In this document: in pieces, positions 20,641 through 63,808 of the stretch
How positions within the stretch are numbered: the stretch's first letter is position 1
Layout of the letters: each line of letters starts with the position of its first letter
NCBI RefSeq assembly: GCF_000003815.2
Contig: NC_049982.1
Span: 24,166,571-24,230,570, forward strand
DNA length: 64,000 nt
Direction: 5' to 3'
Source: Branchiostoma floridae
Lineage: Eukaryota; Chordata; Leptocardii; Amphioxiformes; Branchiostomatidae
Notes under the pieces: generated by a model
Database searches by the model: none
The model's input: only the letters and a program-made list of their open reading frames with translations
What the model was told of the DNA's origin: nothing
Made by a program: the position numbers and the translations under genes

Positions 20641-20786
20641 CCTGTCTTTGCACTTCTCATTCGAACAGGTTCTAAAGTGACATGCTGTGTAGAGAAATGG
20701 AAAACTTGAATAAGTGTCTTATCTCTTTTTGCCCAATATACCAGTATTACAAATCTAAACAGTAAACTCTCTTGTTGATTCTACAG

Positions 20787-20911
20787 AAAATGAGATTGAC
20801 GATCTCGAGATGCAGGTGATGCGATATAAGCCAGAGGGCATTGATGAGCTGGTACGCAACACCAAGTTCACCAAGAAGGAGCTCCAGATCATGTACAGGG
20901 GCTTCAAACAG
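20787..20911 (+). CDS. KCNIP: KChIP exon: start of conserved core
   Basis: 125 nt, acceptor CTACAG|AA, donor AAACAG|GTTGGT. Encodes [20 protein letters not shown] and then [17 protein letters not shown], the helix that precedes EF-hand 1. Enters in phase 1, ends in phase 0. Confidence 0.93.
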
Positions 20912-37230: not shown

Positions 37231-37649
37231 GTAACAAGGACAAAGATCACACAAACTGGATTTGCCATGGGTAGAATAACAATCACTAACGACATTTCAC
37301 ATTACACGTGTATGGTCTACAACAGCGACTTACTACACATATATATATTATATGGTCTACAATAGCGTCTACAGTGTCTATACTAGTATCTCCAGCGAGA
37401 GGCCAAGGTCTGTGCATACACATGGTAAAGGTCGGCTAGTCAGTCTCACTGAGGCTCAGTGCGTGTGACATGTACACTAGCCTAGGTTATCCAGAGTGAC
37501 GTTGCTTGGTACGTAGAAACTTTAATACCATCGATACTTAAACACGTGTATACTTTATACCGCACATCCTTTAATAGCTGTTACAAGACAGCTAGATCTT
37601 GTGAGTAAAGTTTATTGACAATTGATTATATAAGCGCCACAAGTTATGA

Positions 37650-37735
37650 TTGATTGAAATATCTTTATTGTACATTCATGCCTCGGCGGGCTAGGTACAG
37701 GTCACTGATAATAGACATATGCAGAGACAACAAGT
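37650..37735 (-). mobile_element. LINE 3' tail with AATAAA (copy in duplication 1)
   Basis: The minus strand reads TCAGTGACCTGTACCTAGCC, then GGCATGAATGTACAATAAAG, then a short CAAT-type tail. The same 3' end occurs at 41866-41955 (minus) and 52618-52700 (plus). I interpret it as the 5'-truncated 3' terminus of a non-LTR retrotransposon. Confidence 0.6.
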
Positions 37736-38107
37736 TATGGACGAACCCAGACACGCTCCAGAAACCACCTTTAACTTTAGTCCCACCCTACTTTACTGGT
37801 TTACTTTTGTTAAAACGTAATGCAGCGGATAAGTCTGTGTCACACGCCGTTCAAATAGATAAACGCGGCTTTGTATTGGTCTTTAGTACAGGCGGTTGTA
37901 TTGCCTTTAAATATTTCTGGAAATGCCACACCTGCGTTGATATATATTATAGTACCAAAAATCTCTTAAGACCTTAAGACATAAGTAATCCCTGAGATAT
38001 TCACAATTCTGATATCCAGGTGTTCAGTGTTCACTTCAGTTCATATTCTATCCTTTAATCATTCATGTTTTTTATTTACTCCAGTTTGATTGATTGCGTA
38101 TGGTTCA

Positions 38108-38255
38108 TAGTTCATGACTCACTCACCCACTCATTCACTCACTCACCCACCCAACCAACGAACCAACCCACCCACCCACTCACTCACTCACTTAAACACT
38201 CACTTAAACACTCACTCACTCACCCAAACACTCACTCACTCACTCACTCACTAGA
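38108..38255. repeat. (CACT)n tetranucleotide array, copy 1
   Basis: Interrupted CACT/CACC repeats from about 38118. The frame across it reads as Thr-His-Ser runs and is not a gene. Confidence 0.95.
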
Positions 38256-38318
38256 ATTATCACTAAGAGTTTTCTGATTTATTACGTCAAGATAACATTA
38301 GGGTTTTGTTGTACTTAC

Positions 38319-38608
38319 GAAGTCTATGTGCACACGATAGACCTCTGTGTGTGTATATAGAAGATTTTTTTCTGAGAAAGACTTGTGAGCTACCAGTGTT
38401 ATTTTGTTGAACTGCCCCGTACCTGTCCAGCCGAATTGTGTCCGGCCTAATGGATTCTCACGATCGTCGTGGGGCATATAAATGACGTCATACACGAGGT
38501 ACAAGTGGGCGAACGGATATCCAAAAAAAACTGCACCTCTAAAGTGGGGAAAGACGATCGTATTCAATCCCTTTCCGGAACTCTCTTTAACGATTACAAG
38601 AGAAGCCA
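38319..38608 (-). CDS. Exon-like open frame, function unknown (copy 1)
   Basis: A 96-codon open stretch on the minus strand with a possible acceptor (GCGTTTTAG|TGG) and a consensus donor (GACTTC|GTAAGTACAA). It reads FPHFRGAVFFGYPFAHLYLV and later GRTQFGWTGTGQFNKITLVA. No ATG opens it, so it would be an internal exon. The twin at 42577-42866 differs by one Ser/Asn change, but recent duplication alone explains that. No family recognised. Confidence 0.3.
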
Positions 38609-38901
38609 CTAAAACGCATCAAAATCCCTCCACGTTTACAGACAAAAACAAAACTACATTCCCACTTTAAAAATCATATAACCCACGTATCATGTACTTA
38701 TGCTTCTATAAGAGCTTGGATCAGTCAGTCAGTCATGGCAGGGTATTGTCGCTCTCTTCAATTAAGAGCTTGGATACATATTTTAAATCTCAAAACAATC
38801 AGAGTATACTTACGAGTCTCACTTATTTTCAAATGCTGAATTGTTAAAACTGCCATCTTTGAGAGTGGATTTAGATACCTTTTGTCTGCAATGTCTACAA
38901 G

Positions 38902-39178
38902 TACACTCTCCAAACAGAGGTTAGGCTCTGGCTGTTTTTTTTTAAATTTCATTTTAAGGTATTTTATTTAGTCAGGTTTTCTTTCTTCGAAGCCTAACTT
39001 CTGCTTGAAGAGTGTGTAAGAACTAGTATCCTCCCCAAGCAGAGGTTGGTGGGGAATATTTTGACTCTTTTATCATATACTCCGTTTTCTGTCCGTTGGT
39101 GGGGAGTACGGTCAGAAAACGGGCATTTGATTAAAAGGTCACAATACCCCACCTCACCTCACCTCTGCTTGTAGTACA
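38902..39178. mobile_element. Two adjacent palindromic MITEs (copy 1)
   Basis: First: ACTCTCCAAACAGAGGTTAG to CTTCTGCTTGAAGAGTG (38902-39020). Second: CTCCCCAAGCAGAGGTTGG to CACCTCTGCTTG (39029-39178), with the inner pair TACTCCGTTTTCTG / CAGAAAACGG. Both belong to the CAAGCAGAGG group. Confidence 0.7.
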
Positions 39179-39635
39179 GGTGCGCTTACATAGGGCGCGC
39201 TGAAAGTCACCACTCATTGGACAAAACGTAAAAACAATTTGGGAGCTTTCATACAATTCAGCCTACGGCTGCAGGATATTTACTGAATAAGGCATAGGAA
39301 TTATCCACCCTAATCTAATATACTGATAAGGGATGTCAAAGTACCAACTTAAGGGTTGAGTATTTTGGACATGTTGCAAGTTTCGCATGGTTTTGTAGTA
39401 CATTGTACATTACCATAGTAAAATCTTCAGGGGGTATGTACAGGGGGTTCGCATTTAAAAGTGGACCAAATCTTATTATTTTCACATTCAGATGGTCCCT
39501 GTTGAACTTCATATTTCTAGGGACGTATTTCATCAAAAACTGCATTTGTTGCATAGAAGTACCTCCCCCTACTCTGAGTATTGTATTCAACCGGCGGTTG
39601 AGCTGGATGACCTGCGAATATCGACATATATCTAA

Positions 39636-40022
39636 CTAGAGTTCGGCGACCTCATACCTCCATGAAATATTTAGAGCTTTTGTTAATTTTATGCAAATGC
39701 CTTACACATGTACATAATTTATGCATGGTGGTGCTCATCATTGACTAACGTACACATGTCACAAGTATAGAGCACAAGAGCTATCCAACACTCAAAAATG
39801 GTGACCATAGCATGTTCAGAACACGAGATAGCAAAACCGAAAGTTGCGCTGCAGTACCAAGGGAAGCCGCTAGGGTCCCCCAAATCTATTCGTTTTCAGC
39901 ACACCCCACCTACACACCAAGTATGAAACCAATCCGCTCGGCCGTTCTTGAGTTATCTTGTCGAAATACAGACAGACAAACGCTAGTAAAAATATAACCT
40001 CCATGACATTTCATGGAGGTAA
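39636..40022. mobile_element. CCTCCATG-type interspersed element (copy 1)
   Basis: Starts CTAGAGTTCGGCGACCTCAT then ACCTCCATGAAAT, contains CAGTACCAAGGGAAGCCGCT, and ends with the hairpin CCTCCATGACATTTCATGGAGG. Related text is at 40843-41440 and 43604-44003, and end fragments at 49740-49775 and 53620-53645. Confidence 0.65.
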
Positions 40023-40842
40023 AAATCACCCGACGATAGACAGAACGTCGAGCATCCGAGCATTGCTCGTGTTTGACAGGAGTCAAATGACTGAATATTA
40101 TCGCAACGACACGAAATCCAACCCACGGTGGTGTAATCTTCCAGCACACACAAATATAACGTTACATGTAATTTGTTTGCTTTGTAATCATACTTTGTGT
40201 ACATTCCTTTGGCAACTATAGCGATCAGACCCAACTACGTCTATGCAATTCAGCAGCTAAGTTCGCCATGGAAAACAACTTATAATACAGCAAATTGTCT
40301 TCAGTCTGAATTGTCTTACAACGTTTCCTATTGGACACCTGAAATTGTCTTCATTCATAGTTAGAGTATAAAAGACCTGTTTCTTCCAGATCACTTCAGT
40401 GTCACTGACGATAACTGGTGGATTCCAGTTGAAACGTCTGACCGTTTCCAAAACCATATCCAGTTACTTGAGTAACTAGTTTTTGGTGTATCTTGTAATA
40501 CAGTGTCCGGAGAGAAAAAGCCTTGACAATGTCACCTTGTACAAAAACTCCTGGAGACTTAAAGAAACCTTGCCAATTTTGACCGATGGTCATATATAGC
40601 CCTATGAAAACTTGAAATCAAAAGCGAAAGTCTTTTTTCGTGTCTGACAAAACAAGACGACAATAGAAACCTGACTGGCGTATGTAGTGAAACTCCTAAG
40701 GGGTCACATGGTCATATTAGACATGTGCTCACAATGTGCAGGAATAGTTTAGATCAATGTGAAAGATGATTTAAGGGATTTCCAGAATACTTTCACCCTC
40801 TATATTGTTCCTCCTTAGAGGTTTGACTGTATCATTGAACTA

Positions 40843-41440
40843 GAGTTCGGCGACCTCATACCTCCATGAAAATTTAGAGCTTTTGTAAATTTCATGCAAA
40901 TGACTAAGACATTTAACATAATTTATGCATGGTGTTGTTCATCATTGACAAACGTACACATGTCACAATTATAAAATTCCATTATTAATCATAAAGTGGT
41001 TTTGCAATTTTTACATAAATTATGCAAATAATTTCCTCATTACCATATTTAGTATCTGCTTATATTCCACCTATCATAATTAACATGTGTTACATTTATT
41101 GAAGTCCAGTTATTGAAAACAATGGAATTATACAATTTCCTCATTAATTATGCAAATTAAGTCCTCATTTGCATAACATGTATATCATTATGAACATCTT
41201 TGCCTAAGGTACCCGCATGCCTAATATGATGCCAATCCGTCAATCCTTTCTGCAGTTATCCTCTTTGGAATGTCTTGACAAAAACGCCTCTGCAGTTCCT
41301 AAATTAAATGTTAGGGGGCTGAAACTCGCTCCACTTTGTCATGACACTGAAAGCTATCTACCACGGAAATTTCACGTCATATCACGTCCAGGACAAGAGA
41401 TACATAGAAAAAACTGCTATGATTGAATGTTGTCATTAAT
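40843..41440. mobile_element. CCTCCATG-type element, diverged copy between the duplicates
   Basis: Starts with the same GAGTTCGGCGACCTCATACC but diverges inside into AT-rich text with repeated ATTATGCAAAT. It separates the two tandem duplicates. Confidence 0.5.
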
Positions 41441-41865
41441 TATGCAAATTTGCTCCTTTTTTGCATAATTAGTATTTCATCTTGTACAACATTGTCCAAG
41501 GTACCCGCTTGGTACTAAACCTATTACTACACATGTATGGTCTGCAACAGCGCCTTACTACACATATATGGTCTACAATATAGCGTCTACAGTGTCTATA
41601 CTAGTATCTCCAGCGAGAGGCCAGGGTCTGTGCATACACATGTAAAGGTTGGCTACTCAGTCTCACTGAGGCTCAGTGCGTGTGACACTAGCCTAGGTTA
41701 TCCAGAGTGACGTTGCTTGTTAGAAACTTTAATACCATCGATACTTTCAAAACACGTGTATACTTTATACCGCACATCCTTTAATAGCTGTTACAAGACA
41801 GCTAGATCTTGTGAGTAAAGTTTATTGACAGTTGATTATATAAGCGCCACAAGTTATGATTGATT

Positions 41866-41955
41866 GAAATATCTTTATTGTACATTCATGCCTCGGCGGG
41901 CTAGGTACAGGTCACTGATAACAGACATACATGTATGCAGAGACAACGAGTTATG
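41866..41955 (-). mobile_element. LINE 3' tail (copy in duplication 2)
   Basis: Duplicate of the tail at 37650-37735, with a small insertion (ACATGT) in the ATATGCAGAG region. Confidence 0.6.
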
Positions 41956-42329
41956 GACGAACCCAGACACGCTCCAGAAACCACCTTTAACTTTAGTCCC
42001 ACCCTACCTTACTGGTTTACTTTTGTTAAAACGTAATGCAGCGGATAAGTCTGTGTCACACGCCGTTCAAATAGATAAACGCGGCTTTGTATTGGTCTTA
42101 AGTACAGGCGGTTGTATTGCCTTTAAATATTTCTGGAAATGCCACACCTGCGTTGATATATATTATAGTACCAAAAATCTCTTAAGACCTTAAGACATAA
42201 GTAATCCCTGAGATATTCACAATTCTGATATCCAGGTGTTCAGTGTTCACTTCAGTTCATATTCTATCCTTTAATCTTTCATGTTTTTTATTTACTCCAG
42301 TTTGATTGATTGCGTATGGTTCATGGTTC

Positions 42330-42512
42330 ATGACTCACTCACCCACTCATTCACTCACTCACCCACCCAACCAACGAACCAACCCACCCACCCACTCACT
42401 CACTCACTTAAACACTCACTTAAACACTCACTCACTCACCCAAACACTCACTCACTCAAATAAATTCACTCACTCACTCACTCACTCACTCACTCACTCA
42501 CTCACTCACTAG
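42330..42512. repeat. (CACT)n tetranucleotide array, expanded copy 2
   Basis: Same array in the second duplicate, with about 48 bp more of uninterrupted CACT near 42466-42512, so it changed after duplication. Confidence 0.95.
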
Positions 42513-42576
42513 AATTATCACTAAGAGTTTTCTGATTTATTACGCCAAGATAACATTAGGGTTTTGTTGTACTTAC

Positions 42577-42866
42577 GAAGTCTATGTGCACACGATAGAC
42601 CTCTGTGTGTGTATATAGAAGATTTTTTTCTGAGAAAGACTTGTGAGCTACCAGTGTTATTTTGTTGAACTGCCCCGTACCTGTCCAGCCGAATTGTGTC
42701 CGGCCCAATGGATTCTCACGATCGTCGTGGGGCATATAAATGACGTCATACACGAGGTACAAGTGGGCGAACGGATATCCAAAAAAAACTGCACCTCTAA
42801 AGTGGGGAAAGACGATCGTATTCAATCCCTTTCCGGAATTCTCTTTAACGATTACAAGAGAAGCCA
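42577..42866 (-). CDS. Exon-like open frame, function unknown (copy 2)
   Basis: Duplicate of 38319-38608 with the same candidate splice sites and an intact frame. Confidence 0.3.
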
Positions 42867-43159
42867 CTAAAACGCATCAAAATCCCTCCACGTTTACAGA
42901 CAAAAACAAAACTACATTCCCACTTTAAAAATCATATAACCCACGTATCATGTACTTATGTTTCTATAAGAGCTTGGATCAGTCAGTCAGTCATGGCAGG
43001 GTATTGTCGCTCTCTTCAATTAAGAGCTTGGATACATATTTTAAATCTCAAAACAATCAGAGTATACTTACGAGTCTCACTTATTTTCAAATGCTGAATT
43101 GTTAAAACTGCCATCTTTGAGAGGGGATTTAGATACCTTTTGTCTGCAATGTCTACAAG

Positions 43160-43436
43160 TACACTCTCCAAACAGAGGTTAGGCTCTGGCTGTTTTTTTT
43201 TAAATTTCATTTTAAGGTATTTTATTTAGTCAGGTTTTCTTTCTTCGAAGCCTAACTTCTGCTTGAAGAGTGTGTAAGAACTAGTATCCTCCCCAAGCAG
43301 AGGCTGGTGGGGAATATTGTGACCTTTTTTTATCATATACTCCGTTTTCTGTCCGTTGGTGGGGAGTGCGGTCAGAAAACGGAGTATATGATAAAAAGGT
43401 CACAATACCCCCACCCCACCTCTACTTGGAGTACAG
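43160..43436. mobile_element. Two adjacent palindromic MITEs (copy 2)
   Basis: Duplicates of 38902-39178. The second hairpin is better preserved here (TTTTATCATATACTCCG / CGGAGTATATGATAAAA). Confidence 0.7.
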
Positions 43437-43603
43437 GTGGAGTACTGGAAGTCATTCAGATCGACCGTGTTAAACTTCATATTTCTAGGGAAGTATTTAA
43501 TCTAAAACTGCATTTGTTGCATAGAAGTACCTCCCCCTACTCTGAGTATTGTATTCAACCGGCGGTTGAGCTGGATGACCTGCGAATATCGACATATCTC
43601 TAA

Positions 43604-44003
43604 CTAGAGTTCGGCGACCTCATACCTCCATGAAATATTAAGAGCTTTTGTTGATTTTATGCAAATGCCTTACACATGTACATAATTTATGCATGGTGGT
43701 GTTCATCATTGACTAACGTACACATGTCACAAGTATACAGCACAAGAGTTATCCAACACTCAAAAATGGTGACCATAGCATGTTCAGAACACGAGATAGC
43801 AAAGCCGAAAGTTGCGCTGCAGTACCAAGGGAAGCCGCTAGGGGCCCCCAAATCTATTCGTTTCCAGCTTTCATCACACCCCACCTACACACTAAGTATG
43901 AAACCAATCCACTTGGCCGTTCTTGAGTTATCTTGTTGACAGACAGACAGAAAAAATAACCTCCACGTGAAAATATAACCTCCACGACATTTCATGGAGG
44001 TAA
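43604..44003. mobile_element. CCTCCATG-type element (copy 2)
   Basis: Counterpart of 39636-40022 in the second duplicate, with the end hairpin ACCTCCACGACATTTCATGG. Confidence 0.65.
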
Positions 44004-47279: not shown

Positions 47280-48300
47280 TACCACTTGGCATAATAATTG
47301 AGAATAAACTACACTGGTATTTACACACTAGAGAAGAGTAACATTATTATGTTCAAATCAAGAGGTTCATTTGGTTAAAATATGGTGTATTTATGAAAAA
47401 CCGTGATCGGATAACAATCTATTCACTTTGAAATTGGAATAAATCTTTTGAATGTAAGTAACAAAAACATAGGGAACGAAAAAAGTCGTGTTTCTGCTCA
47501 GCAATGCTACACAGTCAGTCTCACTTAACACAGCCCCAACAGTTTCCAACATATTTCGATTGACAAAACACTACTAGTATCCACGGACAGGGTTGGCCCC
47601 GGATACTGTTTCGGCCCACACTGTACTGCCAATCCAAAGATCTACATGGAATAGGTCCCCTGCTACAAATTCATGAACAACTTTGACTTTGTACCAAATT
47701 GAGTCTCAATCCCTTTCCGTGTTCAGACAACCGTGCGTGATCATGCATATGTCGACCCTGTGTCGTGGTTTCCGGGTGACGGGACTTAAGTTGGGGGTGA
47801 CAGAGGTGGGGTGTGGTCGGTGTTTGTGTGTGTGCCAGTGTGTGTCCGTGCCAGGATCGGGTGATAAAAATCTCGCTGCATGACAATATAACAGTGAGGT
47901 ACAGATAGATATTTCTGGACTCCTCATTATCATATCTGGGAGTGGGAGTGGTGCACCTGTGGGTGTTTCCAACAACGTGTCTGTACTTCCGGGCACTGAT
48001 TCTTCCCATATATTCGCATTGGAAAACTTATTTTGGAGCCACAGAACTTTGGAGCCGAATTTGATGTTTTACCGGTTAGATAAAGTAATGGATAACTTTC
48101 CCTTCGCAAACTTTCCTAAGCCCAAAATGCCAATTTTCAACTCATACGGACGTAACGAGGCACTGCACTTCCTACTTCAAAGTTAATGTTATGTTGCTGT
48201 TTATCTACGCCAGTCCTTGGCAACCTTCTTACTTTAGAATACCAAAAAAAAAAAACATTTCTAGGAAGAGATACAATACTGTTCTACTGTGTCAACGCCA
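47280..48300. other. Upstream region of the cytokine-like gene
   Basis: No supported exon. Opposed open frames at 47671-48186 look like chance. This stretch has no counterpart upstream of the truncated duplicate at 53060. Confidence 0.35.
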
Positions 48301-48452
48301 GTGAAGTTGTAGCGTAACGCGATAGTAGGCTAGGCGCGGATACGGCTCAAAGATCAAACAAACACACCTGCTGTTACCACGGCGCGCTTTGTACGTCATA
48401 GACAGACAGGTGTTATTGAACGTGCTAAATATAGACAGTAACAGTCAGACAA

Positions 48453-48507
48453 TACGTCACTTTTCGGGGAAGCCCTTCCCGTGGGCGAAGTATCTCGCCT
48501 ATAAAAA
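48453..48507 (+). promoter_or_regulatory. Core promoter of the cytokine-like gene
   Basis: TATAAAAA at 48500-48507 (CTCGCCTATAAAAAGAG). Upstream are a CRE-like TACGTCA at 48453-48459 and the dyad GGGGAAGCCCTTCCC at 48466-48480. All three recur with similar spacing in the truncated duplicate (53187-53245), while nearby bases differ. The dyad has GGGAA/TTCCC half-sites like Rel or NF-kappaB sites but with four extra central bases, so factor identity is open. Confidence 0.7.
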
Positions 48508-48529
48508 GAGCAAAGTTCCAACACTGGCC

Positions 48530-48620
48530 GTACACCAACGGCACGGGCGCCTGAAAATTCGTCTGTTTGTGGAGGCTTGTAGATTCGTTGCTGTTAACTT
48601 AGTCCTTAGTCCAATAATAG
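48530..48620 (+). other. 5' untranslated leader exon of the cytokine-like gene
   Basis: Expected start about 25-30 bp after the TATA box. It ends at CAATAATAG|GTTAGT. The duplicate preserves the same junction (ATACAATAG|GTTGGT). No ATG in good context. Confidence 0.5.
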
Positions 48621-48684
48621 GTTAGTTGCGTTGTATCTAGTTTTCGTTTCAGGTAGTAATGTGTCAATGCGTTTATTCTACTAC

Positions 48685-48870
48685 CTCCATAGAAAATGGA
48701 GGTATTGTGTTGGGTGTGTCTATGCGTTTGTATTTGTGGATGTTTGTAGTCAACAGAACTTAATAATCTCTGGATGGATAACAATGCTATTTGGGATGGC
48801 AGTAGAGGTTGGGAAGACGAAGGTTTAGGAACTTTTGGGGTCTCCTAGTTTGTGGTATCAACGAAACGTT
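48685..48870. repeat. CCTCCAT..ATGGAGG repeat in the leader intron
   Basis: ACCTCCATAGAAAATGGAGG hairpin followed by text shared with 4740-4980. The same insertion is in the truncated duplicate (53400-53520), so it predates the duplication. Confidence 0.65.
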
Positions 48871-48968
48871 TTGACTTTGTGTTGCTGGGCTACTTTTTTT
48901 TAAGTAAAAGATCTCACCATGATCCAATTGTGTCTTTTTAACAGGGCCTACAAACTGTCAACAACGAC

Positions 48969-50918
48969 ATGCTGCTACTAGAGAAAATCGTCTTCGTTAC
49001 AATTTTGGGGATGTGTGTCTTCAGTCTTTGCACAGCCGGAAGACGAGAAAAAGGGTGTTCGGAAAGAAATATGAAGAACAATTACCGCAAATTCTCCAAA
49101 ATACACGACAGAGTCAATACCGCCTTGAGGAAAGTGACCACTACGTCCGAAAAGGTGAGAATCTTCTGTACTGTTCCATTGTAAAACACCCGGCAGCAAA
49201 ACGAAAAATTCTTGTAACACAAACTAGATAAATATGAACGTGACTGAACTCTTAGTAACTTTTCCTTCTTCAGGGCCAAAATGGGCACTAATACTCGATA
49301 CCACTTTGTGGCATTGGAGGAAGGATGCGGTTCCAAACGTAACTGAGTCTAAATGATGTTGTTTTATTCTAAATTACAGGTGGAGGAACATGTTTCACGT
49401 GAGGACAGGACCAACCCGGATAGTTTGTTACTGAAAGTTGGAGATCTACTTTTCGAAGACGGTCCGAGCTTCTCGGGACTGAGACTTAAAGGACTGAAGT
49501 TGCCAGACTTGGGTCTCGACGTAAGTGTACTTAAATCGCCTCTTGGAAATGTTTGGTGTTTATTTGTTTGTATCACAACCGTCGTTAAGGTGTAACATAC
49601 CACCTCTGTTAGACCACTTTGATTGGGTCACTCTCTTTTGTAAGTTGATTAAGTTCAAGTCTCGTGTTCTAAAAACCTTTAACCTTAAACCCTGTGTAAC
49701 TAAATTTCAAATCGATAGGAAAGCACAGTCTAGGTTCGTACATTGGCGGAGGTATGAGGTCGTGGAACTCTAGTAATTAGTAACTTTTTTAAAGGGACAT
49801 GACAAATCAAAATCGTCCGTGGTTAGCAAGCGAATGTACTGAGCCTGCGGTCACTACGGAGGATGGTTTTTTGAAGCCGTTTTTATTTCTTGTTCTTGTT
49901 CTTGTTCTGTACATCAACAACTATGCTTTCATTCAAGTGTATGTATACAATTGTATTAAGTATTATATAAAGTACAATAATAATTCTTGCTGTCTACAGG
50001 ATATAGCGAAGTTTCAAATTTACATGGCGGAACTGGGGGTACTCAACAGTGAGCTGGACAGGCTGGAGGATGACGTCATTGAGAATGTACGTCATCTTGA
50101 GGAGGAGGACAAGTTGCTCGTACTGAAAGGCGTGATGGAAGATCTTCCCATCCTCAAGGAATATTTGAAGGAAATCCACAAGGACGCATCTGAGTTGGTG
50201 AGTGTAGCACATTTCTATCATTACTTTAAACATTATTTCTTTGTATTAAATATTATTTTGAAAGTAAACTAGCTTAACATAGTCATTCATAGGTCAAATT
50301 GTAACAAAGGGAAATGTTCATTTAATTCATAAATTCGTTTGTCATTTCTCTTTGTAGACGGAAAAAATTAAGAGATGTGTGCCCAACGCACACGTGGACA
50401 TCCTGGTCGAACAGTACATAACACAAGTCGAGTCTACCAGACAGACGGTAAGTTTATACATCAATTGGCATTGTTTACCTTGCCTGTTTGTGCGCATGTA
50501 GTAATTAAACAATGTATGGATTGTGTACATCTTTGTTATATTGGCAGTTGTTGCAAGCACAACGTCGACTGATCTTGGTACTGCAGCACAGCTTCCGTTT
50601 TTCCTATTGCTAATTGTGTCATTTCATTTTGTTCTCTATCTGCAGGCTCCAAGTAGGACTCGGCGAGATACACAAGAGGCCACGGCAAGCTCCTCGATCT
50701 TGCTTGGGAAGATCAGGCACCACGTCGGCCGCGAACGTCGGGACACGGCCGGAGCAGGGGAGAGCGCCCTCCAGCACAGCTGGTGGGTACTGCAGGACCT
50801 AGAGAATCTCCTCCAACATGACGTCATCTCGACACTCAACAGCATGACGAACAAGAGTAGTGGGGAAGGAGGCAGGAGGAAACGCTCAAAGAAGGGGAAG
50901 AACAGTCAGTCAGACTAA
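48969..50918 (+). CDS. Secreted helical protein, candidate IL-10/IFN-gamma-like class II cytokine (295 aa)
   Basis: Five coding exons: 48969-49154, 49380-49520, 50000-50197, 50358-50447 and 50646-50918 (62, 47, 66, 30 and 90 codons, then TAA). All four introns are GT-AG and phase 0. The first coding exon opens at 48945 after CTTTTTAACAG. Residues 1-23 form a signal peptide (MLLLEKIVFVTILGMCVFSL, CTA). The mature part has only two cysteines, C30 and C182. Predicted amphipathic helices: about 33-58 (NYRKFSKIHDRVNTALRKV), exon 3 (DIAKFQIYMAELGVLNSELD, then HLEEEDKLLVLKGVMEDLPI), exon 4 and late exon 5 (SWWVLQDLENLLQHDVISTL). Class II helical cytokine genes (IL-10 family, type III and fish interferons) have this five-exon, all-phase-0 plan. 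The motif KIKRC....VEQ in exon 4 resembles IL-10 around its LRRC disulfide cysteine. The tail GGRRKRSKKGK recalls interferon-gamma. Longer than IL-10 (about 178 aa) because of an insert at the start of exon 5 with dibasic sites (RTRRD, RERRD). It could be another secreted helical protein; gene model confident, family inferred. Confidence 0.8.
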
Positions 50919-51975
50919 ACCAACTGCCTCACTAGGTGCGGGCGGTTAATGAAATCGTATTTGGGGGAGGTTGAAGACTATGATATGTTGTAAGAGTTTG
51001 CTTCTCTATATTAGGGAGGGTAAACTTCTGACATTTTCAACCTCACTCCTCGCTTAGTACACGCTAAGTGTTTGTTGTTGAACTTCTTTGGAGGTTCATG
51101 TACAGGTTATACCTGACATTAAAGATGTTAAACAGATACGCACCAGTCCTTAAATGTTAGTTTTGCCATTTATCGAATACTAGTATTATCGTGTAAAGAT
51201 TGTATTTGTGTGGGTGTTTGATAAAGTTATTTCAGATTAGAATGATTCTAAATTTATCTATTGTTTTCAATAGCCAAACAGGTACACCGTGCAATTAAGT
51301 ATTGTTAGATATATTGCATATTGTTTATAACTTATTGTGCAGAGGTAATAGATATATCAACAGAAGCGATATGTGCTCATACATATGTATATTTTACACA
51401 GCTATTTATTTTGTACAAAATACATATTATATATTTTTCAAATATAATATATTATATTGTTGCAATTATATGCAGGGGCAGCTACATCTAAACAATGTCG
51501 CAGGCAGTACAGTGTTTCTTGCTTGCTGAACAAAATTTAATGTGGAAGTCGAGTTTATAAGAATGAATTGCCGAACAAATGTTAGATTTGAGCTTGAGAA
51601 TAGAAATGGCTGAACAAATTAAAGGTTAGATTCTCACTTGCGAGAATGAAATGTAGTGCACATTGCACCTTTCGTAACTAGATACAGCTCGAAAAAGTTT
51701 ATTAATGAAAGTGGCAGTAATTAGTCTATGCTAATGAAGTTTTTAATTTACAATTTGCCATTGAACTTTATGTTTCTGTAGTACTGTTATATAGTATAAG
51801 TCGGGTAAAAATAATACTACTTTGAGATAAACTTTATAACAGCAATATTGTTTGTGTTGTTGTCATGAAGTTAAAGTTATTTTTTTGTATTGTTGCAAAA
51901 TTTGTCTGTTAAGTGAATACTTTGTATGACGAATCCCTTCTGCCAACAGAATAAAATGAGTTTGATTTTAAAATG
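50919..51975 (+). other. 3' UTR of the cytokine-like gene, with ATTTA motifs
   Basis: Runs from the TAA to about 20 nt after AATAAA. It holds ATTTA pentamers at 51168-51172, 51252-51256 and 51404-51408 (the last inside TATTTATTT). AU-rich elements of this type destabilise many cytokine mRNAs, but the region is AT-rich, so chance is possible. Confidence 0.55.
51950..51955 (+). terminator. Probable polyadenylation signal of the cytokine-like gene
   Basis: AATAAA in CAACAGAATAAAATGAG, about 1 kb after the stop, followed within 30 nt by a T/G-rich stretch (TTTTTGTAGTGT). Confidence 0.55.
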
Positions 51976-52007
51976 TTTTTGTAGTGTATTATCATGCCTG
52001 AGAAAGC

Positions 52008-52033
52008 TATATATATATATATATATATATATG
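52008..52033. repeat. (AT)n microsatellite
   Basis: About 12 uninterrupted AT dinucleotides. Confidence 0.95.
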
Positions 52034-52239
52034 TTAATCTTTAGATCTTTAAAGATCCTTAGATTCTCCCGTTTTGCGACAGTGTCACACTGATACTACA
52101 TGTATGGTTGGTTGCCCGAGATTTGAAATTGCGGTTCCGTAGCGGAGGTCTACTAGATCACGACACAACTTGAAACAAGATAGAGTGTAAGACCATAGGA
52201 GACTGTTTCAAAATGTTCAAGGCAATCACCGCAAGTTAC

Positions 52240-53040
52240 CCGCTCCACTGCATGTCGGTATTTTTGCCTGGGTGGACAGTAGCTGTGGGCAGTAGGCCAA
52301 ATGACCGGAAGTCGTGGGTCAGTTGAAAAGCGAAAGGTGGTCACCGAGGTAGAATGGAATCCGAAATTTGTGTGGAACGCTGCAAATTTGTGGAACGCTG
52401 TAAGCCATAATTAACCTCATTTCACTTCATAAGAAAATCTAGGTGCGTTCAGGGGGGGGGGGGGCATCTTCACTCAGTTTATACGAGTATTCTTTTCAAG
52501 CTTTGACCCAGATACTAGTATTCTATTTGAATAAAGCCTCCTTGCCTTGACACAGATAACTAGTACTATACTGCCCGCGTGTACCGTCGTTCTGGTTTTG
52601 CTGCTTATAAATACCTTGTTGTCCCTGCATATGTCTGTTATGTCTGTTATCAGTGACCTGTACCTAGCCCATCGAGGCATGAATGTACAATAAAGGTCTT
52701 TCAATTAATTAATTAATAATACAGGTATTAAAGACATCAGTCTGCAGTTGTATTTGCGATGCGAGGATCGAGGTCTAAGAGTCATCGGAAATTTCGGGAG
52801 TGTTGGTGAATTTCGGGAGTCAACTGAAATCTGGGGGGGGGGGCGTTCCACATCACAGGAATAATTGGGGGCGTTCACCTGGCCATGGGGACAAGGACGT
52901 TAAATGAAACGTATTTGATATGGGGCGTAGAAGGATTTTCTCCCAATTCTCAACCCGGGGCCAGACCGGACAGCTTTCGGAAGCGAAAAATATTATATAA
53001 AAGGCAAGAAAACAATAAGAACGTAAAGAAATTGTCCTGA
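52240..53040. repeat. Segment shared with 44910-45330
   Basis: Second copy of the shared segment, interrupted by a LINE tail at 52618-52700 and by G-rich runs near 52453 and 52835. It leads directly into the truncated promoter copy. Confidence 0.65.
52618..52700 (+). mobile_element. LINE 3' tail, plus strand
   Basis: TCAGTGACCTGTACCTAGCC, GGCATGAATGTACAATAAAG and an (ATTA)n tail. Same family as the minus-strand tails at 37650 and 41866. Confidence 0.6.
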
Positions 53041-53059
53041 GCCTAATTTGAGAATATTC

Positions 53060-53640
53060 GTTTGTAACGCGATATAGCACCCTAGGCGTGGATACGGTTC
53101 AGAGATCAAACAAGACACGTTACTATGGCGACCCGTATACGTCACAGAGAGCCAGGTGTTAAATATAGACGGTAACAGGCCGACAATACGTCACGTATTT
53201 TTTTGGGAAGCCCTTCCGCTGGGCGAAATTCCTCGCCTATAAAAAGTGAACAATTCCAACACTGGCCGTATTATTGCAACGGCACGGGCGCTTGAAAAGT
53301 TGTCTGTTTTTGGAGGCTAATGGAGATTCTTTACTGTCAACTTCGTCCTTTATACAATAGGTTGGTGGCGTTGTTTTTAGCTTTCGTTTCATGTAGCATT
53401 GTTACATCGATGAAAAATGGAAGTATAGTGTAGGACGTGTCTGTACGTTTGTATAAGTGGATATCTGAACATTGTCAGCAGAAATTAACAACCTCTCAAT
53501 TGATGTGGCAGTGCTGGGCTGCTGAAAAAATCTTACCATGACCCTATTGTGTGTTTTTTTCTTCAAACAGGTGCTCCAAACTGTCACCAACAACATGCTG
53601 CTACTGGGGAAAATCGGGGCAGTACCAAGGAAAGCCTCTA
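53060..53640 (+). pseudogene. Truncated duplicate of the cytokine-like gene (promoter, leader, first codons)
   Basis: Matches 48308-48990: CRE-like site 53187-53193, dyad 53205-53217, TATAAAAA 53238-53245, leader exon ending ACAATAG|GTTGGT, the intronic CCTCCAT-type repeat, acceptor CTTCAAACAG, then CCAAACTGTCACCAACAACA and an ATG at about 53593. After about six codons (MLLLGKI) similarity stops and the text becomes GGCAGTACCAAGGAAAGCC, which resembles the interior of the CCTCCATG element at 39850. No counterpart of exons 2-5 follows before the SSUH2 gene. Loss was probably by recombination or insertion at that repeat. Promoter elements look intact, so a non-coding transcript is possible. Confidence 0.8.
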
Positions 53641-53649
53641 TGGGATAAC

Positions 53650-54090
53650 ATAAACTCTCATAATAGCTCGACATAAAAAAAAAGTTTGGTCTGGCATGTG
53701 TTAGTATTCATTCAAAAGTCTTTATTTCATCCTCATAAAAGATTGATTTCTTTCATGTATGTATAAACAATAGAACCTATGTATGTTATAACGTTACATA
53801 ACGTTATCTGTATTTAAGAGATGGATTTTAAAAATGCCACTGCTTAACGTTATATCTGAAAGCACAGTATGATTGTTTACAGTGAGTTTGTCACTGCACT
53901 TCAAACATAGGGTTTGTTTGGCGTGGTAATTGTGGAATTGAAGACAATTGTTCAAATATTGTGTTAGTCAATTCAATTTAATTCATTTAAAGCCTGCTAA
54001 ATGACACAAGGAAATGTAACGTTAGTTTACTGTACTGTATTGTGGTGTGGCACTTTGGCAACCTCGCTGTGGTCACCAATCGATTTCACA
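53650..54090. other. No gene recognised
   Basis: AT-rich sequence between the truncated duplicate and the presumed end of SSUH2. Confidence 0.4.
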
Positions 54091-54098
54091 GAACAAAT

Positions 54099-55111
54099 TT
54101 TATTCAAAACAAATCTTTTTATGCTTTGTGTGTTCTGTTGTATTTCTAGCCATACCTGTACGATTTGCATGACATTCCCATTATAAAGTCAAGGTTAACA
54201 TAAATCTAAGGTTAACGCAGCATTTTAGGCTGTCAGTGTACCACAGTCCAGTGAGATACTGGCTTAAGACAAGTATTATCAATAAGTCACAAACTTGTAA
54301 AATCAAACACACAGAAATATAAAACTCTGACATCTGAGTAACGTTACTGTCATATAGAAAGAATGCATTTTGAAGCAAGTCTGACTCATATTTACATCAT
54401 CATACAGTACATGTACAATGCATTTGCTTGCAAAAAACATGATTATAAAGTACTACATTATAGAGAGAGATGGCCAGGTCTTTTGTGAAAAAAAGGTAGA
54501 AAATCTGTAACACACGTATACTTCAACAGTGAGACAGTGTATGTGTACGGTTTGTATGCATTTTATACATATCCTAGACTGCATAACAGTTAACTAAGTG
54601 ACTACATTAATTGTATTTTGACACGATGTCATGTCAAAAGAACTGGCTAAGATATCTTCTGAGAAGTGTCACAAAACCAAATTGGCACAAACTGGAAATG
54701 AACTCATTTCCAATGATACAAATATTTACATGTACATAGGTCTCTGAAGTGGAATTCATTTTCAATCTACCCAGGTATGCAGCTTATATTCTTCAGCACA
54801 AATCCAAGTCAGGTACAAATGTATGTAATGCCACAAAGTGGTTTGATTAATGATGACATATATGCATACCAATATGCATTCCAACAAGCAACCTATTTAC
54901 ATGTAGTAACAGTGCAACTGAGGTATCTCATTTATGATTAATGAGTTAATAACAAAAATAGATAATAAACTAGATAGTGCCAGTGAGTAATTCAGTGAAT
55001 AACAGAGATTCAGTTAAGATTCAAAGTAAGTTTGTTTCCACGTCTCAACGGGATCAAGTTGTTCCCAGTTTCACCGTGTAAACAAAGTCCCTTTCCTGTG
55101 CACCCTCCAGA
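54099..55111 (-). other. SSUH2: Presumed SSUH2 3' UTR
   Basis: Minus-strand sequence after the SSUH2 stop. The first AATAAA I noticed (plus-strand TTTATT) is at 54099-54104, about 1 kb downstream. No coding frame of note. The end is inferred. Confidence 0.35.
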
Positions 55112-55258
55112 TTACAGGATGACACAGCCCCAGCAGCACTGATGCGGGTAATCGGGCGCGTGGACGCGGTGCTCGTTCCCGTACACCCAGTAGCGAGTGT
55201 TGACCTCCTGCCAGTTGTAGTCTATCTCAAACACGGGGACGTTCCTCAGGGTGTGGCG
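55112..55258 (-). CDS. SSUH2: SSUH2 last exon
   Basis: 147 nt including TAA, acceptor GTTTTTCCAG|CGC. Encodes RHTLRNVPVFEIDYNWQEVN and TRYWVYGNEHRVHAPDYPHQ, ending CCWGCVIL. Confidence 0.95.
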   Translation of the reverse strand, partial: RHTLRNVPVFEIDYNWQEVNTRYWVYGNEHRVHAPDYPHQCCWGCVIL

Positions 55259-58200
55259 CTGGAAAAACAAACATATGATTGAAAATCAGAAAACACGTAA
55301 AACACGTACCTCCAAATTTTCCCTGTCTGCAAAGTACACCTTGATCACGGAATGGCCTAGTCTTGCCAGATCACAAAACTAGGCCCTATAATCCACGAAA
55401 GTCTCAGGCCTTAAGTCTTGTGATCTCATGAGACTTAAGGGCCTCTTCGTGATCAATTAGTACTAAGCAGACCAAAAATATTTGGAAGTACATTGTACGT
55501 GTTTTAAGAGTCACCGATTGAAGAATGATTTGCTGTTAAACAAAATGAATTTTTCAGAAGGCCTTTTAACAATTGTAACAGTACTAAATATCTAATACTA
55601 CAATACCACTGGCAGAATTATGAGAGTTGACACTTGATAGCTATTACTATTCACTAAGCAATGAAACACAACTGAACCTAAGTAAGACTAGTACCTGTTG
55701 TAAGATCCTCCCAGCCCTCTCGTAGGTGGAGGTGTGGTACTGCACCAGGCTCTGGGAGTTGGCATTCACGTCCTGGTCGGTGAAGTGAGTGATCGGCCAC
55801 ACCTACAGACAGTCACATGCAACTTGATGACTGGCAAACATCAGCACTTGAAATAATGATGGGATTTAATCTTTTTAACAATATCAGTCAGTTTGAATTT
55901 ACTATATGAGGCTGATGTTAATGACCCACTTTTCTGTCAGTGTCTATACAACACAACATTTAGTGGCCAGTGGACTACCTTATGAATTTGCTTATTTGCT
56001 TTCCTCACTCGGTGGTTCATTTGGTCACTGGCCAGGTGTTATAACACTATAAGCACATCTGCTAAGACAGAATACGGGGTATAATCTGACCAGAGATCAC
56101 CTTTATCTGTGGAGTAACCTATGTTTGTCCTTTCTAAAAACCTGGTATCTTAAGAGATATCAAGTTAACGGACGGTGGTTTCAAACTGCAATATTTTTGA
56201 AAAATTTGCAATTCTAAACCAATTTGACTTGATGTCAATGTTTTTAAAGACAACAGATGTAGGTTACCCCGTTGATAAAGGTGAACTAGTGTTATATTCC
56301 CTGGCCTGTTTTACTGCAGTTTGGGAGAAGGAGTGAACAGTATGAAAGTTGAGGCTTACCCTGATGAGAGTCTGTTGGAAGATGACCAACCCTCCTGCAT
56401 CCTTGATGAGCTCATCAGGCATGTCAGTCCTCTCTGTCACATGATCAGACACCATGTTCTTACTGTGGGGGATACAAACACAGTCTTGCTGTTAGAGGGA
56501 AAGATATGAACAAACAAACAAACAAGTTAAATCAACCAATTGGTCAATCAATAAATTAATCAATCACCAAGTCAATCAATCAAACAATCAATTATTATTT
56601 TGCACATTCCCTACATTATATGCTACAGTATGTAAGCAGTTAATGATAATGCACTGTCCTTGGGAAATGCACCAGACATAAATTTTCTCAATAGACTCCT
56701 TACCACTTAAAGCATTGACAAGGATCATCTTCCATATAAAGTGGAGATCCCATATTTGAGAGGAATTTCATCTCGCAATGTTAAAGAGCCCATAACACTT
56801 ACTGATAAACAAATGGGTTCTGGACGGTCTCGTCTTATGCTGCTTGTAATTATTGATTAACTGGTTACGTAGTAACGTTACATACAAACAAAAAGAAAAG
56901 AAAAGACTTACAAGTTGACAGTAAGCTGAATGTACCACTTCAGATCACGGCAGCCTTGGCACACACCACATGTCACCCTGCCATCTCCTCCACACCTGAT
57001 ACACCTGTAACATTCAAACAGGGCATCTGCAGTTAGAACAATATAAATTGCCATCAAATTATGCAAATTTCATATTCCAAATGTAACAAAACTAATAAAT
57101 TTCAGTGAACATTAATACTGATTATGGAAATCAATATTTTACCTGAACAGTATCATACCTACATGTACACAATGTAAGTACAGGAATATGAAAAACAATA
57201 ATTTGCATAGCAACTTGTTGCTTTTATATTTATGTATGTCACAGGTCACACCTATTAGCCTCCCTGCCTACGTGCCCTCTTTGTATTGCCCATGTTGAAT
57301 GAATGAAGTCAAGGTCAAAACTTATTGCTACAAAAATGGGCAAAATTGCCCTGATGGAGTCATTGAAAATAAAACTGTAAACCTCAAGGTAGCTGCAGTA
57401 GTATCTCTAAGTTTTCTGTTTTTGTGGTAACTTTTCTACTGTGCCTGACATCACTTGTTATTTCCATTGAGTCACTTAACTACAGCGAGGACATCCTTTT
57501 ATTTCAGCCTCAGACTCAAAATGCCTAATTCTTTAATCATGATATTATTGTGCCATGACATTCAACGTTAGTTCTCCTTTATCCGTTGGGTAACCTATTT
57601 CCGTTTTTGTCAAAACAGGGTATGTAACATCTATTATCATAATACCGGTACGTTTACGACGATTTCTCTAGCCATACTGATTTGACAAATTGTCAACGCA
57701 TCATTTTCTCCAGTTACATGTTGCTGTTATAGCTTACCCTTGCCACTTCTTCTGTGTAACTTTTCTGCCACTCTTGTCCTGCTAAAAGCGTAATATTGTA
57801 ATTGTAACACGCCGCGGAATTACACGACGAACGGGCCCGTGGTTGGGAGGGGGTAAAAAATACCGGTAGGAAGAAACACGGCACAATTAACTGCCGCTAT
57901 GTACATTTATACATCCTCTGATGTTCCTTCCTTTTCTGTCAGTAAATGCATAAAACATAAACCTGCATGAGCATACAAAATGTCATGAGAAAACGGACGT
58001 ATACTGTCAAGAATTTTCATTTAACTCCTGTCCGTCACAACCGCTATGACGTAACACTTCACTGCTAGCGTAGATATAAAAATGGCGGGAAAATGGCTGC
58101 GTACGTTCAATTTTGCCCATTCAGTCGTATATCCGGGCTATTATGCAACGGTTCTTCACACTTTTACATGAGTTGTAGGTCACCAACAGAAATTCAAGAT

Positions 58201-61200
58201 TGTTGTTGAATCATGTTCGTCTTGTGCCGTGAGCATGTGTAATTATGATCTATAAATTTGGCAATGAATGTGACAGTGTGTTCGTCCCACGACGAGCTGC
58301 CTACCCCGAAAAAGATACTGAAAACTTTTGGCCTTGTTGTCTTCGAATGCATTGTTATCGATGCTTTGTAAATGATGTATTGGACACCTAGATGTCTGAA
58401 GTGTGCACAGCTCAGAAATAACTATTGTTGCATGTGTAGATCTCTTTAAGTTCCAGTATTTTTAATCTACCGGTATAAGTCTTACTACCGGTATTATGCC
58501 AATGCATGTTACAGATATCAAGTAAACGGAGGTTGGTTTAAAGTTGCAGTATTTTCAGGATAATGCAGCTTGAAACCACCACATGTTGACAAAATATCCC
58601 TACATACCCTGTTTTAAAAACAACGGATAAAGGTTACCCCACAGATAAAAGTGAACTAGCGTTAGGTGTTGTGGACCCAAATAACTCTACAGTACAGATC
58701 AGACTGCATGGAGGATGCCTTACCTTCTCCGTCCTGACCCATGGCACCAGTGACAGGTCTCCCTGCGATGCTGTTTTGTCTGATGGTCATACCTCGTCCT
58801 GTGTCCACTCCCATGGCAAGTGGAACAGCGAACCTAAAGAGGTTGTTATATCTTATGTCACACCTTCAACAAGGATGTTCTGGACCGGTCAGAGTTTTAC
58901 CGTATCTCAGGTACATGTATTTAGTACTTGCATCACTGGGGGTTCCCAAAGGAAGTGGATTACAAAAAATCTCCTAGAACAACGCACTTCATGTACACCA
59001 CTGAACTCCAGATTTGGACATTGGAATCAACGGTCTTCCAATGTTTTCTCACCCTCTGGTGCAATTTGTGTTTTCTCGGGTGAGTTTGACATAAAGAGAA
59101 TACAACATGGTGTATTCTGCAGCAACTCCCCCCCCCCCAGAAAACGATGTAAGATGTAAGTTCACAGGTGTGGGTTGGAATCCCACCTCTGACACCATGT
59201 CATGCTCTGTGGGTTTGTCCTCTCTATGGTGTATTCTCAAATAATTGATAACATTATGCCATCTTTTTTTAAACGAAAAGAATTCATCATTACTCATACG
59301 GAGAATGTGAGATGTATGTGGGTGTGGGTTTGAATCCCACTTCTGACACCATGTTGTGCTCTGTGGGCAAGTCCACCCTCAATTGCAGTGTAATTATTTG
59401 ATTGCTAGCACGAGTCTGACTCACATTAATGATTTTGCAAATAAACAATATTATTAATAGACTTTCCATTCTTAGGACAGATTCAAATGCAAGTTTTCTT
59501 GTCTGGGTGCTCCTTTGAGGCTTACACTTCTACATGTTCATACCTTAGTTCTTTTACATGAACTAGGAATCACAGATGATCAGGAAGGAATACTCACCCT
59601 TCCCCTGCCATGGCATCGAGGGCAGCGCTTGAAGCCACGGCCGTAACAAGAGTGGCAACTCTGGGTAAAGTTGAACAGAAACAAAGAATTTTACTCACGG
59701 ATGGAAGACACCAGGACATGCAAATATATTTTCAAAACTTACTTTGAAACCAACTACTGTACTCTGATATCAAATTGTAGAACTGACATTAAACCAGACC
59801 TATACAGCTAAGGTACTGAAACACTATCCATTAAAACTGACATTAAACCAGACCTATACAACTAAGGTACTGAAATACTATCCATTAAAACTGAAATTAA
59901 AACAGACCTATACAGCTAAGGTACTGAAACGCTGTCCATTAAAACTGACATTAAACCAGACCTATACAGTTAAGGCACTGAAACACTATCCATTAAAACT
60001 GACATTAAACCAGACCTATACAGCTAAGGTACTGAAACACTATCCATTAAAACTGACATTAAACCCAGACCTATACAGCTAAGGTACTGAAACACTATCC
60101 ATTAAAACTGGCATTAAACCAGACCTATACAGCTAAGGTACTGAAACACTATCCATTAAAACTGGCATTAAACCAGACCTATACAGCTAAGGTACTGAAA
60201 CACTATCCATTAAAACTGACATTAAACCCAGACCTATACAGCTAAGGTACTGAAACACTATCCATTAAAACTGACATTAAACCAGACCTATACAGCTAAG
60301 GTACTGAAACACTATCCATTAAAACTGACATTAAACCAGACTTATACAGCTATGGTACTGAATCACTATCCATTAAAACTGGCATTAAACCAGACCTATA
60401 CAGCTAAGGTACTGAAACACTATCCATTAAAACTGACATTAAACCAGACCTATACAGCTAAGGTACTGAAACACTATCCATTAAAACTGACATTAAACCC
60501 AGACCTATACAGCTAAGGTACTGAAACACTATCCATTAAAACTGACATTTAATCAGACTTATACAGCTGAGGTACTGAAACACTATCCATTAAAACTGAC
60601 ATTAAACCAGACCTATACAGCTAAGGTACTGAAACAATATCCATTCAAACTGACATTAAACCAGACCTATACAGCTAAGGTACTGAAACACTATCCATTA
60701 AAACTGACATTTAATCAGACCTATACAGCTAAGGTACTGAAACACTATCCATTCAAACTGACATTAAACCAGACCTATACAGCTATGGTACTGAAACACT
60801 ATCCATTAAAACTACCAAGAAACCTCACCGCCTATCTTCCTTACCTGTACTTTAGCTGTGTGAGGCACTTCAATGAGCCTGACCTCATCATTGAAAAACT
60901 GAGCAGCAGTGCAGGCGATATCCCAGGGGCCGGGTGGGTACCCGTTTTGTGGGCCATCAATGATTTGTCCTGAAAATAAGAATTAAAAATTCATTGTTGC
61001 AACTATGTGTACAGTAATGATATACATGTATTAATATCATCAATATTACAATATTTTTTGCAGAAATGAAAAGTAGGATTTGGTTTCTATAACATGCATT
61101 GGCATAATACCGGTCATAAGCCTTATACCGGTCGATTAAAAATAGTGGAACTTAAAGAGATCTACACATGCAACAATAGTTATTTCTGAGGTATGCACAC

Positions 61201-63345: not shown

Positions 63346-63472
63346 CTGCAAATCAGTGGGATGTTTGTGTCAAAGTTTGGGGTATTATAAGATATTGGAA
63401 AGGAAGATTTACAAAAAAGTTTAGGTCACTAGAGTTCAGCTATTCTTCCACTGGTCATGACAGAGAAGACAA

Positions 63473-63808
63473 ATGCTAATCCATCTCACTAGACTTAGAC
63501 TTAACTTCGGTCAGTTGAATTTCCACCTGTTCCAACATAAATGTGTAAATAGTCCTATGTGTAATTGTGGCCACCCTAACGAATCAACTATACATTATTT
63601 TCTACACTGTCCTCTATACAATGATGCAAGACTTGATATGTTGTCATCTTTAACCACTATCTTACCATTTGACCCAAGACACACCACTGAAAATATTTTA
63701 TGTTCAACCTTACTCAGGGGAAACCCAGTACTATCTACCATTCAGAACTGTCATTTATTTGATGTTGTGTTTAAGTTCATCAAACAGACAGATCGTTTCA
63801 GCTGAACC
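63473..63808 (+). mobile_element. LINE ORF2 C-terminal fragment
   Basis: Open frame beginning MLIHLTRLRLNFGQLNFHLF and containing MCNCGHPNESTIHYFLHCPL. The 'HLTRLRxGxxxLxxHLF' block followed by a CxC..H....C zinc-knuckle is the conserved C-terminus of jockey/CR1/I-like LINE polyproteins. It lacks the reverse transcriptase and is 5'-truncated, 130 bp from an SSUH2 exon. Confidence 0.75.

Follow-up and report, generated by a model that had tools for sequence, protein, structure and literature searches.

An apparently lancelet-specific gene that resembles class II cytokine genes in layout and may encode a secreted, convertase-processed helical protein

Genes of the IL-10 family and of the lambda interferons typically possess five exons with phase-0 introns (sections of PMC12652433, PMC2654155 and PMC5332411). 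In the sections of PMC2654155 the IFN-lambda genes are described as having five conserved exons and phase-zero introns, with an additional 5' exon in some of them, and in those of PMC5332411 IFN-gamma is a four-exon gene that has lost the canonical third intron. One class II receptor is named in Branchiostoma floridae (PMC3210801), and according to PMC8218723 conservation of the IFN-mediated antiviral response does not extend to tunicates or amphioxus. No class II ligand was found described for a lancelet in the portions of the open-licence PubMed Central (PMC) literature that were covered. Here we analyse LOC118414585, a gene in a 64,000-nucleotide stretch of B. floridae DNA (the window, C4:24166571-24230570; the genome searched comprises 513 Mb in 431 contigs), for which an earlier note had proposed an invertebrate class II cytokine. 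The protein resembles a cytokine in layout; membership of the IL-10/interferon family is unsupported by the tests that were run. We consider it slightly better than an even chance that this functional, lancelet-specific gene encodes a secreted, mostly helical precursor, processed by a convertase and acting as an extracellular signal.

The gene lies on the forward strand and has coding exons of 186, 141, 198, 90 and 273 nucleotides, all divisible by three. All exon borders are GT-AG, and the four introns, all in phase 0, fall at residues 62, 109, 175 and 205 of the protein. The coding sequence (CDS) of 888 nucleotides specifies 295 residues, and a protein search matched this conceptual protein to LOC118414585 with 100% identity over 100% of the length; the five coding exons and four phase-0 introns of the earlier note were thus read again as described. 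The G+C content of the CDS is 0.50, compared with 0.36-0.41 in the surrounding 4-kb bins. In a related protein, P0004 (introduced below), the reading extends upstream of the methionine, in register with positions 48942-48968 of the window. Because of this continuation an upstream 5' exon is likely to exist in LOC118414585, which would then probably have six exons in all. The parts of the gene and a nearby partial duplicate are the following.

48500..48507, + strand: TATA box TATAAAAA, read from the sequence and kept in the duplicated 5' fragment
48540..48652, + strand: probable upstream 5' exon, its borders estimated from what the 5' duplicate conserves and from the way P0004 extends upstream
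48946..49154, + strand: coding exon 1, with the CDS from 48969; signal-like N-terminus, C30 and putative helix A
49380..49520, + strand: coding exon 2, with the conserved LLLKVGDLLFEDG..FSGLRLKGLKL.DLGLD
50000..50197, + strand: coding exon 3, with putative helices C and D, both long
50358..50447, + strand: coding exon 4, 90 nucleotides in frame, with C182 and putative helix E; missing in two of six family models
50646..50918, + strand: coding exon 5, with RTRR (209-212), RERR (234-237), a conserved helix (240-273), the basic tail and the stop
50919..51966, + strand: 3' untranslated region (UTR), its end estimated; AATAAA at 51950
53064..53616, + strand: truncated duplicate of the promoter, the 5' region and the first codons of exon 1, from alignment

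A search of the genome with the protein returned ten exon matches, five of them to this gene and five to a second copy at C4:23257238-23259197, 958 kb upstream. The second copy possesses the same five exons; its 888-nucleotide CDS aligns without gaps, differs at 27 nucleotides and encodes an intact protein of 295 residues with 15 replacements (counted by eye). Replacement divergence (dN) is 0.023 and silent divergence (dS) 0.060, a ratio of 0.39 (Fisher P 0.019). Because the second copy is intact and shows a higher density of silent than of replacement changes, we conclude that LOC118414585 is a functional protein-coding gene.

A protein search together with a profile search yielded a family of six proteins, all from Branchiostoma. 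In both, a candidate has to share five-residue words with the query, and scoring in the second was confined to the 7994 candidates with the most such words, so more distant relatives may escape. P0001 is the query protein; P0002, P0003, P0005 and P0006 are B. lanceolatum Hypp2163-2166, with consecutive numbers; and P0004 comes from a floridae x belcheri assembly. Judged from these sequences the family appears to be lancelet-specific, with relatives known only from Branchiostoma and present in at least one further lancelet species. No mention of the six identifiers was found in the literature searched.

The protein begins with a hydrophobic, signal-like stretch (judged by eye) that contains cysteines at 16 and 21; the mature part has cysteines at 30 and 182 only, a pair present in all four family proteins that carry exon 4, and it ends in a basic tail. 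In these respects the putative signal peptide, the exactly two mature cysteines and the polybasic tail of the earlier note hold. Its helix-rich body is seen in two weak AlphaFold models, which show helices in the order A, B, C, D, E, F, including one at 32-66 in the first model, but their mean predicted local distance difference test (pLDDT) values are only 46.5 and 44.1. A feature that the earlier note did not mention is a furin-type R-x-[KR]-R site at the start of exon 5, which is found in 6/6 family proteins and reads RTRR (209-212) in the query. The two marks of a convertase-processed precursor, a hydrophobic N-terminus and a conserved RxRR site, are therefore both present. Further R-x-[KR]-R matches lie within the basic tails of P0001 and P0003.

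Mean identity, calculated over all available pairs (six pairs for exon 4), is 0.47 in the mature part of exon 1, 0.68 in exon 2 (0.74 in its core) and 0.61 in both exon 3 and exon 4. Behind the RxRR site it is 0.77 for residues 213-239 and 0.83 for residues 240-273, and it falls to 0.41 in the tail. By these alignments the helix behind the RxRR site is one of the two best conserved parts of the protein, together with the core of exon 2.

It is mainly because the RxRR site is conserved at the start of exon 5 that we prefer a processed precursor. The signal peptide would direct this precursor into the secretory pathway, and a bond between C30 and C182 would link the N-terminus to the point where the exon 3 helices end. 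Furin or a related convertase would cut after RTRR, at residue 212. The C-terminal part, consisting of the conserved helix and the basic tail, might then be released as a cysteine-free helical factor, or it might stay docked on the N-terminal bundle as one chain of a two-chain protein. In either form the product would signal outside the cell, much as helical cytokines and protein hormones do. The arrangement is like that of convertase-processed precursors such as those of TSLP or hormones, with a signal-like N-terminus, an RxRR site and a conserved part behind it; no sequence relationship with them was found.

Several observations speak against this reading. The confidence of the models is low and the helix map is therefore provisional. 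A second R-x-[KR]-R is present in only two of the six proteins (P0001 and P0002), and the glycine before it becomes glutamate in the second B. floridae copy. Exon 4 is missing from two of the six models, P0005 and P0006, which would equal an in-frame skip; one of these is also truncated at its start, and P0005 retains the first cysteine only. Finally, the high all-pairs values behind the RxRR site lean on the close B. lanceolatum copies. When P0001 is compared with the others, the exon 2 core scores 0.76, the exon 5 helix 0.75 and residues 213-239 0.68, and for P0004 the equivalent values are 0.80, 0.75 and 0.74.

The alternative that survives best, which we nevertheless regard as unlikely, is a secreted helical protein without a signalling role, for example a lipid carrier or a mucus-type component. 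Such a role would suit a lineage-specific family that, judged from its gene numbering, has been locally multiplied in B. lanceolatum. It would also suit the weak and scattered Pfam matches to helical proteins, which include ApoLp-III (E 0.013, in one of five members) and, as the commonest, ALMT (in two of five members, best E 0.001). However, these matches differ among the members, and none is above the curated cut-off in the one member tabulated.

Less probable still, and in our estimate rather doubtful, is that the protein is a divergent class II helical cytokine, similar to IL-10 or IFN-lambda, which signals through lancelet CRF2-type receptors and JAK-STAT. Its fold would comprise six helices, with A in exon 1, B in exon 2, C and D in exon 3, E in exon 4 and F in exon 5. 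The gene itself fits this, since five coding exons with four phase-0 introns is the layout published for IL-10 and IFN-lambda genes. The order of the helices and their position relative to the exon borders in the two weak models agree with the expected arrangement, which is a hint only. Further, C30 and C182, placed directly ahead of putative helix A and where putative helix D ends, resemble the disulfide pair of IL-10, and with the IL-10 family the lancelet gene shares a signal-like N-terminus in exon 1, an N-terminal cysteine and a cysteine near the border of exons 3 and 4. IFN-lambda is likewise matched in the five coding exons and the probable upstream exon, and IFN-gamma in the basic C-terminal tail; the five coding exons are unlike the four of IFN-gamma.

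Comparisons of sequence gave a less favourable result. Among 14 cytokines human IL-10 was the best (score 26.1, P 0.0028), followed by IL-22 (21.5, P 0.017). With controls, the single human IL-10 sequence scored 26.5 (P 0.0025), a value reached by 0/150 shuffles, and the reversed query scored 9.8. This P value is not independent, because it was this very resemblance that had led the earlier note to IL-10. In its first half the alignment passes through helices A to C in the expected order; in its second half the end of exon 3 falls on IL-10 exons 4 and 5. An IL-22 profile also scored well (24.4, P 0.0057, 0/60 shuffles), but in another register, in which FQIYMAEL falls on a different stretch than in IL-10. 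A profile comparison with four human sequences gave P 0.041. When 65 orthologues were added, the IL-10-only profile scored 18.7 (P 0.056, 6/60 shuffles); taken singly, these orthologues scored 25.2 at best, 19.8 at the median and 15.5 at the lowest. The real score of the IL-26 profile was reached by 12/60 shuffles and that of IL-20 (one sequence) by 4/60, and IFNL1, with a score of 13.1, showed no sequence match to the lancelet protein. A mixed family profile, assembled from 116 non-viral IL-10/22/26 matches and three human sequences, scored 18.6 (P 0.054), which was reached by 13/300 shuffles and exceeded by the reversed query (21.4). Except for the single-sequence resemblance to IL-10 and the out-of-register match to IL-22, the profile comparisons lie near chance or disagree in register. 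Positive controls were also weak in this method (IFN-lambda1, P 0.16; IFN-gamma, P 0.0092 over 17 columns), and because true class II members score poorly these tests have little power to exclude homology.

Other comparisons speak against membership. The two IL-10 signature motifs (PMC4338397) are absent from all six proteins. Their best agreement is 5-6/10 and 5-6/9 positions, which 99 to 975 of 1000 shuffles reach, and full matches occur in 91/116 and 80/116 of the positive control proteins. An exon-by-exon score calculated in register was reached by 144/200 shuffles, with the true pairing ranking 39 of 120. On the basis of the motif test, this score and the inconsistent profile registers, the placement of KIKRC..VEQ and IAKFQIYMAEL at IL-10 positions, which the earlier note had stressed, is not supported beyond chance. 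The query has no Pfam match above a family cut-off, and sequence searches of the PDB gave no class II cytokine match above chance. Aligned to IL-10, introns 1 and 2 are displaced by 5 and 8 IL-10 residues, and the second lies 18 alignment columns from that of IL-10, although the register of the alignment is itself not firm. The lancelet cysteine is seven residues into exon 4, unlike the LRRC of IL-10, which is at the end of exon 3. The mature protein has about 270 residues, about 110 more than the roughly 160 of the family, and carries a conserved RxRR before the last helix, between putative helices E and F. We know of no such site in the class II cytokine family.

Searches by structure relied on the first model, whose pLDDT of 46.5 is too low for them to be informative. 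Foldseek gave no match at E <= 0.001, and class II cytokines were absent from the best 50 of 415 Foldseek matches (E <= 10) and from the best 50 of 995 VIA-align chains. The top matches were designed bundles and ferritin-like enzymes, with the signal peptide inside many of the alignments. In terms of structure, then, the helix order is as expected for a class II cytokine but the models that show it are weak. Genome searches with Pfam models were equally uninformative: PF00726 gave no matches, in a search without a control that responded; PF00714, the IFN-gamma model, gave a single chance-level match (E 2.4) and did not find the query gene; and PF14565 gave one match at chance level (E 0.29), in an alternative frame of a 366-residue open frame.

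Loci with the domains of class II receptors are present in the genome. PF01108 was found at three places, all above the curated cut-off, and PF09294 was above its cut-off near all three (E 2.1e-9 with two halves joined by X, 9.6e-7 and 1.6e-4), in frames that were selected by eye, lay no more than about 15 kb from the respective PF01108 place and came from five of seven fetched loci. We infer that the PF01108 and PF09294 exons at each locus form one gene. The loci are listed here.

C12:20606438-20626437 (L025, L026), - strand: class II receptor-like locus with D1, D2 and two fibronectin type III domains
C3:5622471-5632470 (L028): locus with PF01108 and nearby PF09294 exons
C12:5970560-5990559 (L030/L031): locus with PF01108 and nearby PF09294 exons

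For the D1 exon of the first PF01108 place the nearest solved structure is IL-10R beta (E 0.0038), and for its D2 piece it is fibronectin (E 0.00039), with IL-10R beta at only E 1.7. The D1 exon of the third PF01108 place gave weak matches to IL-22RA2 (E 0.061), IL-10R beta (E 0.17) and Kit (also 0.17). In the locus at C12:20606438-20626437 a transmembrane-like stretch was seen by eye, followed by a long tail with repeated DPYV/DPYL tyrosines, which are possibly STAT docking sites.

With three loci in this genome that carry class II receptor domains, compared with the one receptor named in PMC3210801, lancelets may be expected to possess class II ligands. LOC118414585 is a concrete candidate ligand for receptors for which none was found described. 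Layout, cysteine spacing and these receptor domains fit the class II assignment of the earlier note, which gains no support above chance from motifs, Pfam, exon-by-exon pairing and the mixed profile. It is a reasonable guess from the gene layout that is hardly supported by sequence, and the protein may have descended from the class II family. Even were it not the ligand, it would remain a conserved and uncharacterised helical protein, probably secreted and processed, for which relatives were found in lancelets alone.

We assign a similarly low probability to a class I-type or independently arisen helical cytokine or hormone, which overlaps with the processed extracellular signal that we prefer. 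Long helices, phase-0 introns and a signal peptide occur widely among genes for helical cytokines and need not reflect class II descent, but seven class I cytokines scored only 10.3-16.9 (P 0.08-0.75), and Pfam and PDB sequence searches turned up nothing further from class I. A neuropeptide-type precursor, in which an amidated peptide would be freed between RTRR and VGRERR, is highly improbable: the RTRR..VG-RERR spacing of P0001 and P0002 and two cAMP response element (CRE) half-sites in the promoter suit it, but four of the six proteins lack the second site, the glutamate of the second B. floridae copy replaces the amidation glycine so that a Gly-basic-basic signal is not conserved, and the helix behind the putative peptide and exon 2 are at least as conserved as the peptide itself.

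These half-sites, TACGTCA, lie upstream both in the gene and in its truncated 5' duplicate. Neither an interferon-stimulated response element (ISRE) nor an NF-kB consensus occurs in the 361-base promoter stretch. In the 3' UTR, ATTTA occurs five times against an expected 4.7, a count reached by 257/500 shuffles, and so is not in excess. The signals in the promoter and the 3' UTR neither help nor exclude a cytokine.

The second copy is part of a larger duplicated block, which corresponds to 48278-63419 of the window, starts just 5' of the gene promoter and is repeated in C4:23254001-23274000 (L022/L024) with about 82-97% identity in its main pieces. It is the product of a recent segmental duplication or else a second allele that was misplaced. 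The 5' duplicate at 53064-53616 is 72.6% identical over 481 columns and 79.3% over 92, and has a stop soon after the ATG; a fragment resembling it is also seen inside the second block. In the 40 kb that flank the window on each side, tblastn at E <= 1 detected no tandem paralogues.

The left neighbour is presumably a KChIP-like gene and the right neighbour a set of SSUH2-like pieces, names that we assign by eye, and we know of no link between such neighbours and the vertebrate IL-10 or IFN-gamma loci. The exons of the KChIP-like EF-hand gene occupy about 20000-30200 on the + strand (Pfam EF-hand pair, E 1.9e-17, from hand-joined pieces) and include two similar, possibly alternative exons. The SSUH2-like pieces, noted by eye at about 56000-63500, are CIRCGGDGRVTCGVCQGCRDLKWYIQLTV and, at 63102-63425 on the minus strand, AGLTEQEARDAMIQFVAEHCCYGKKPAEEHVIKAIKPSTAFH; Pfam gave no supporting match for them. 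A tandem repeat at 59778-60813 has one frame open as NQTYTAKVLKHYPLKLT units, which seem to be less numerous in the copy block in L024. Finally, the region 37600-44000 contains two long similar copies, in which the open frames at 37654/41864 and 38301/42559 are nearly identical; they are probably a dispersed or tandem repeat.
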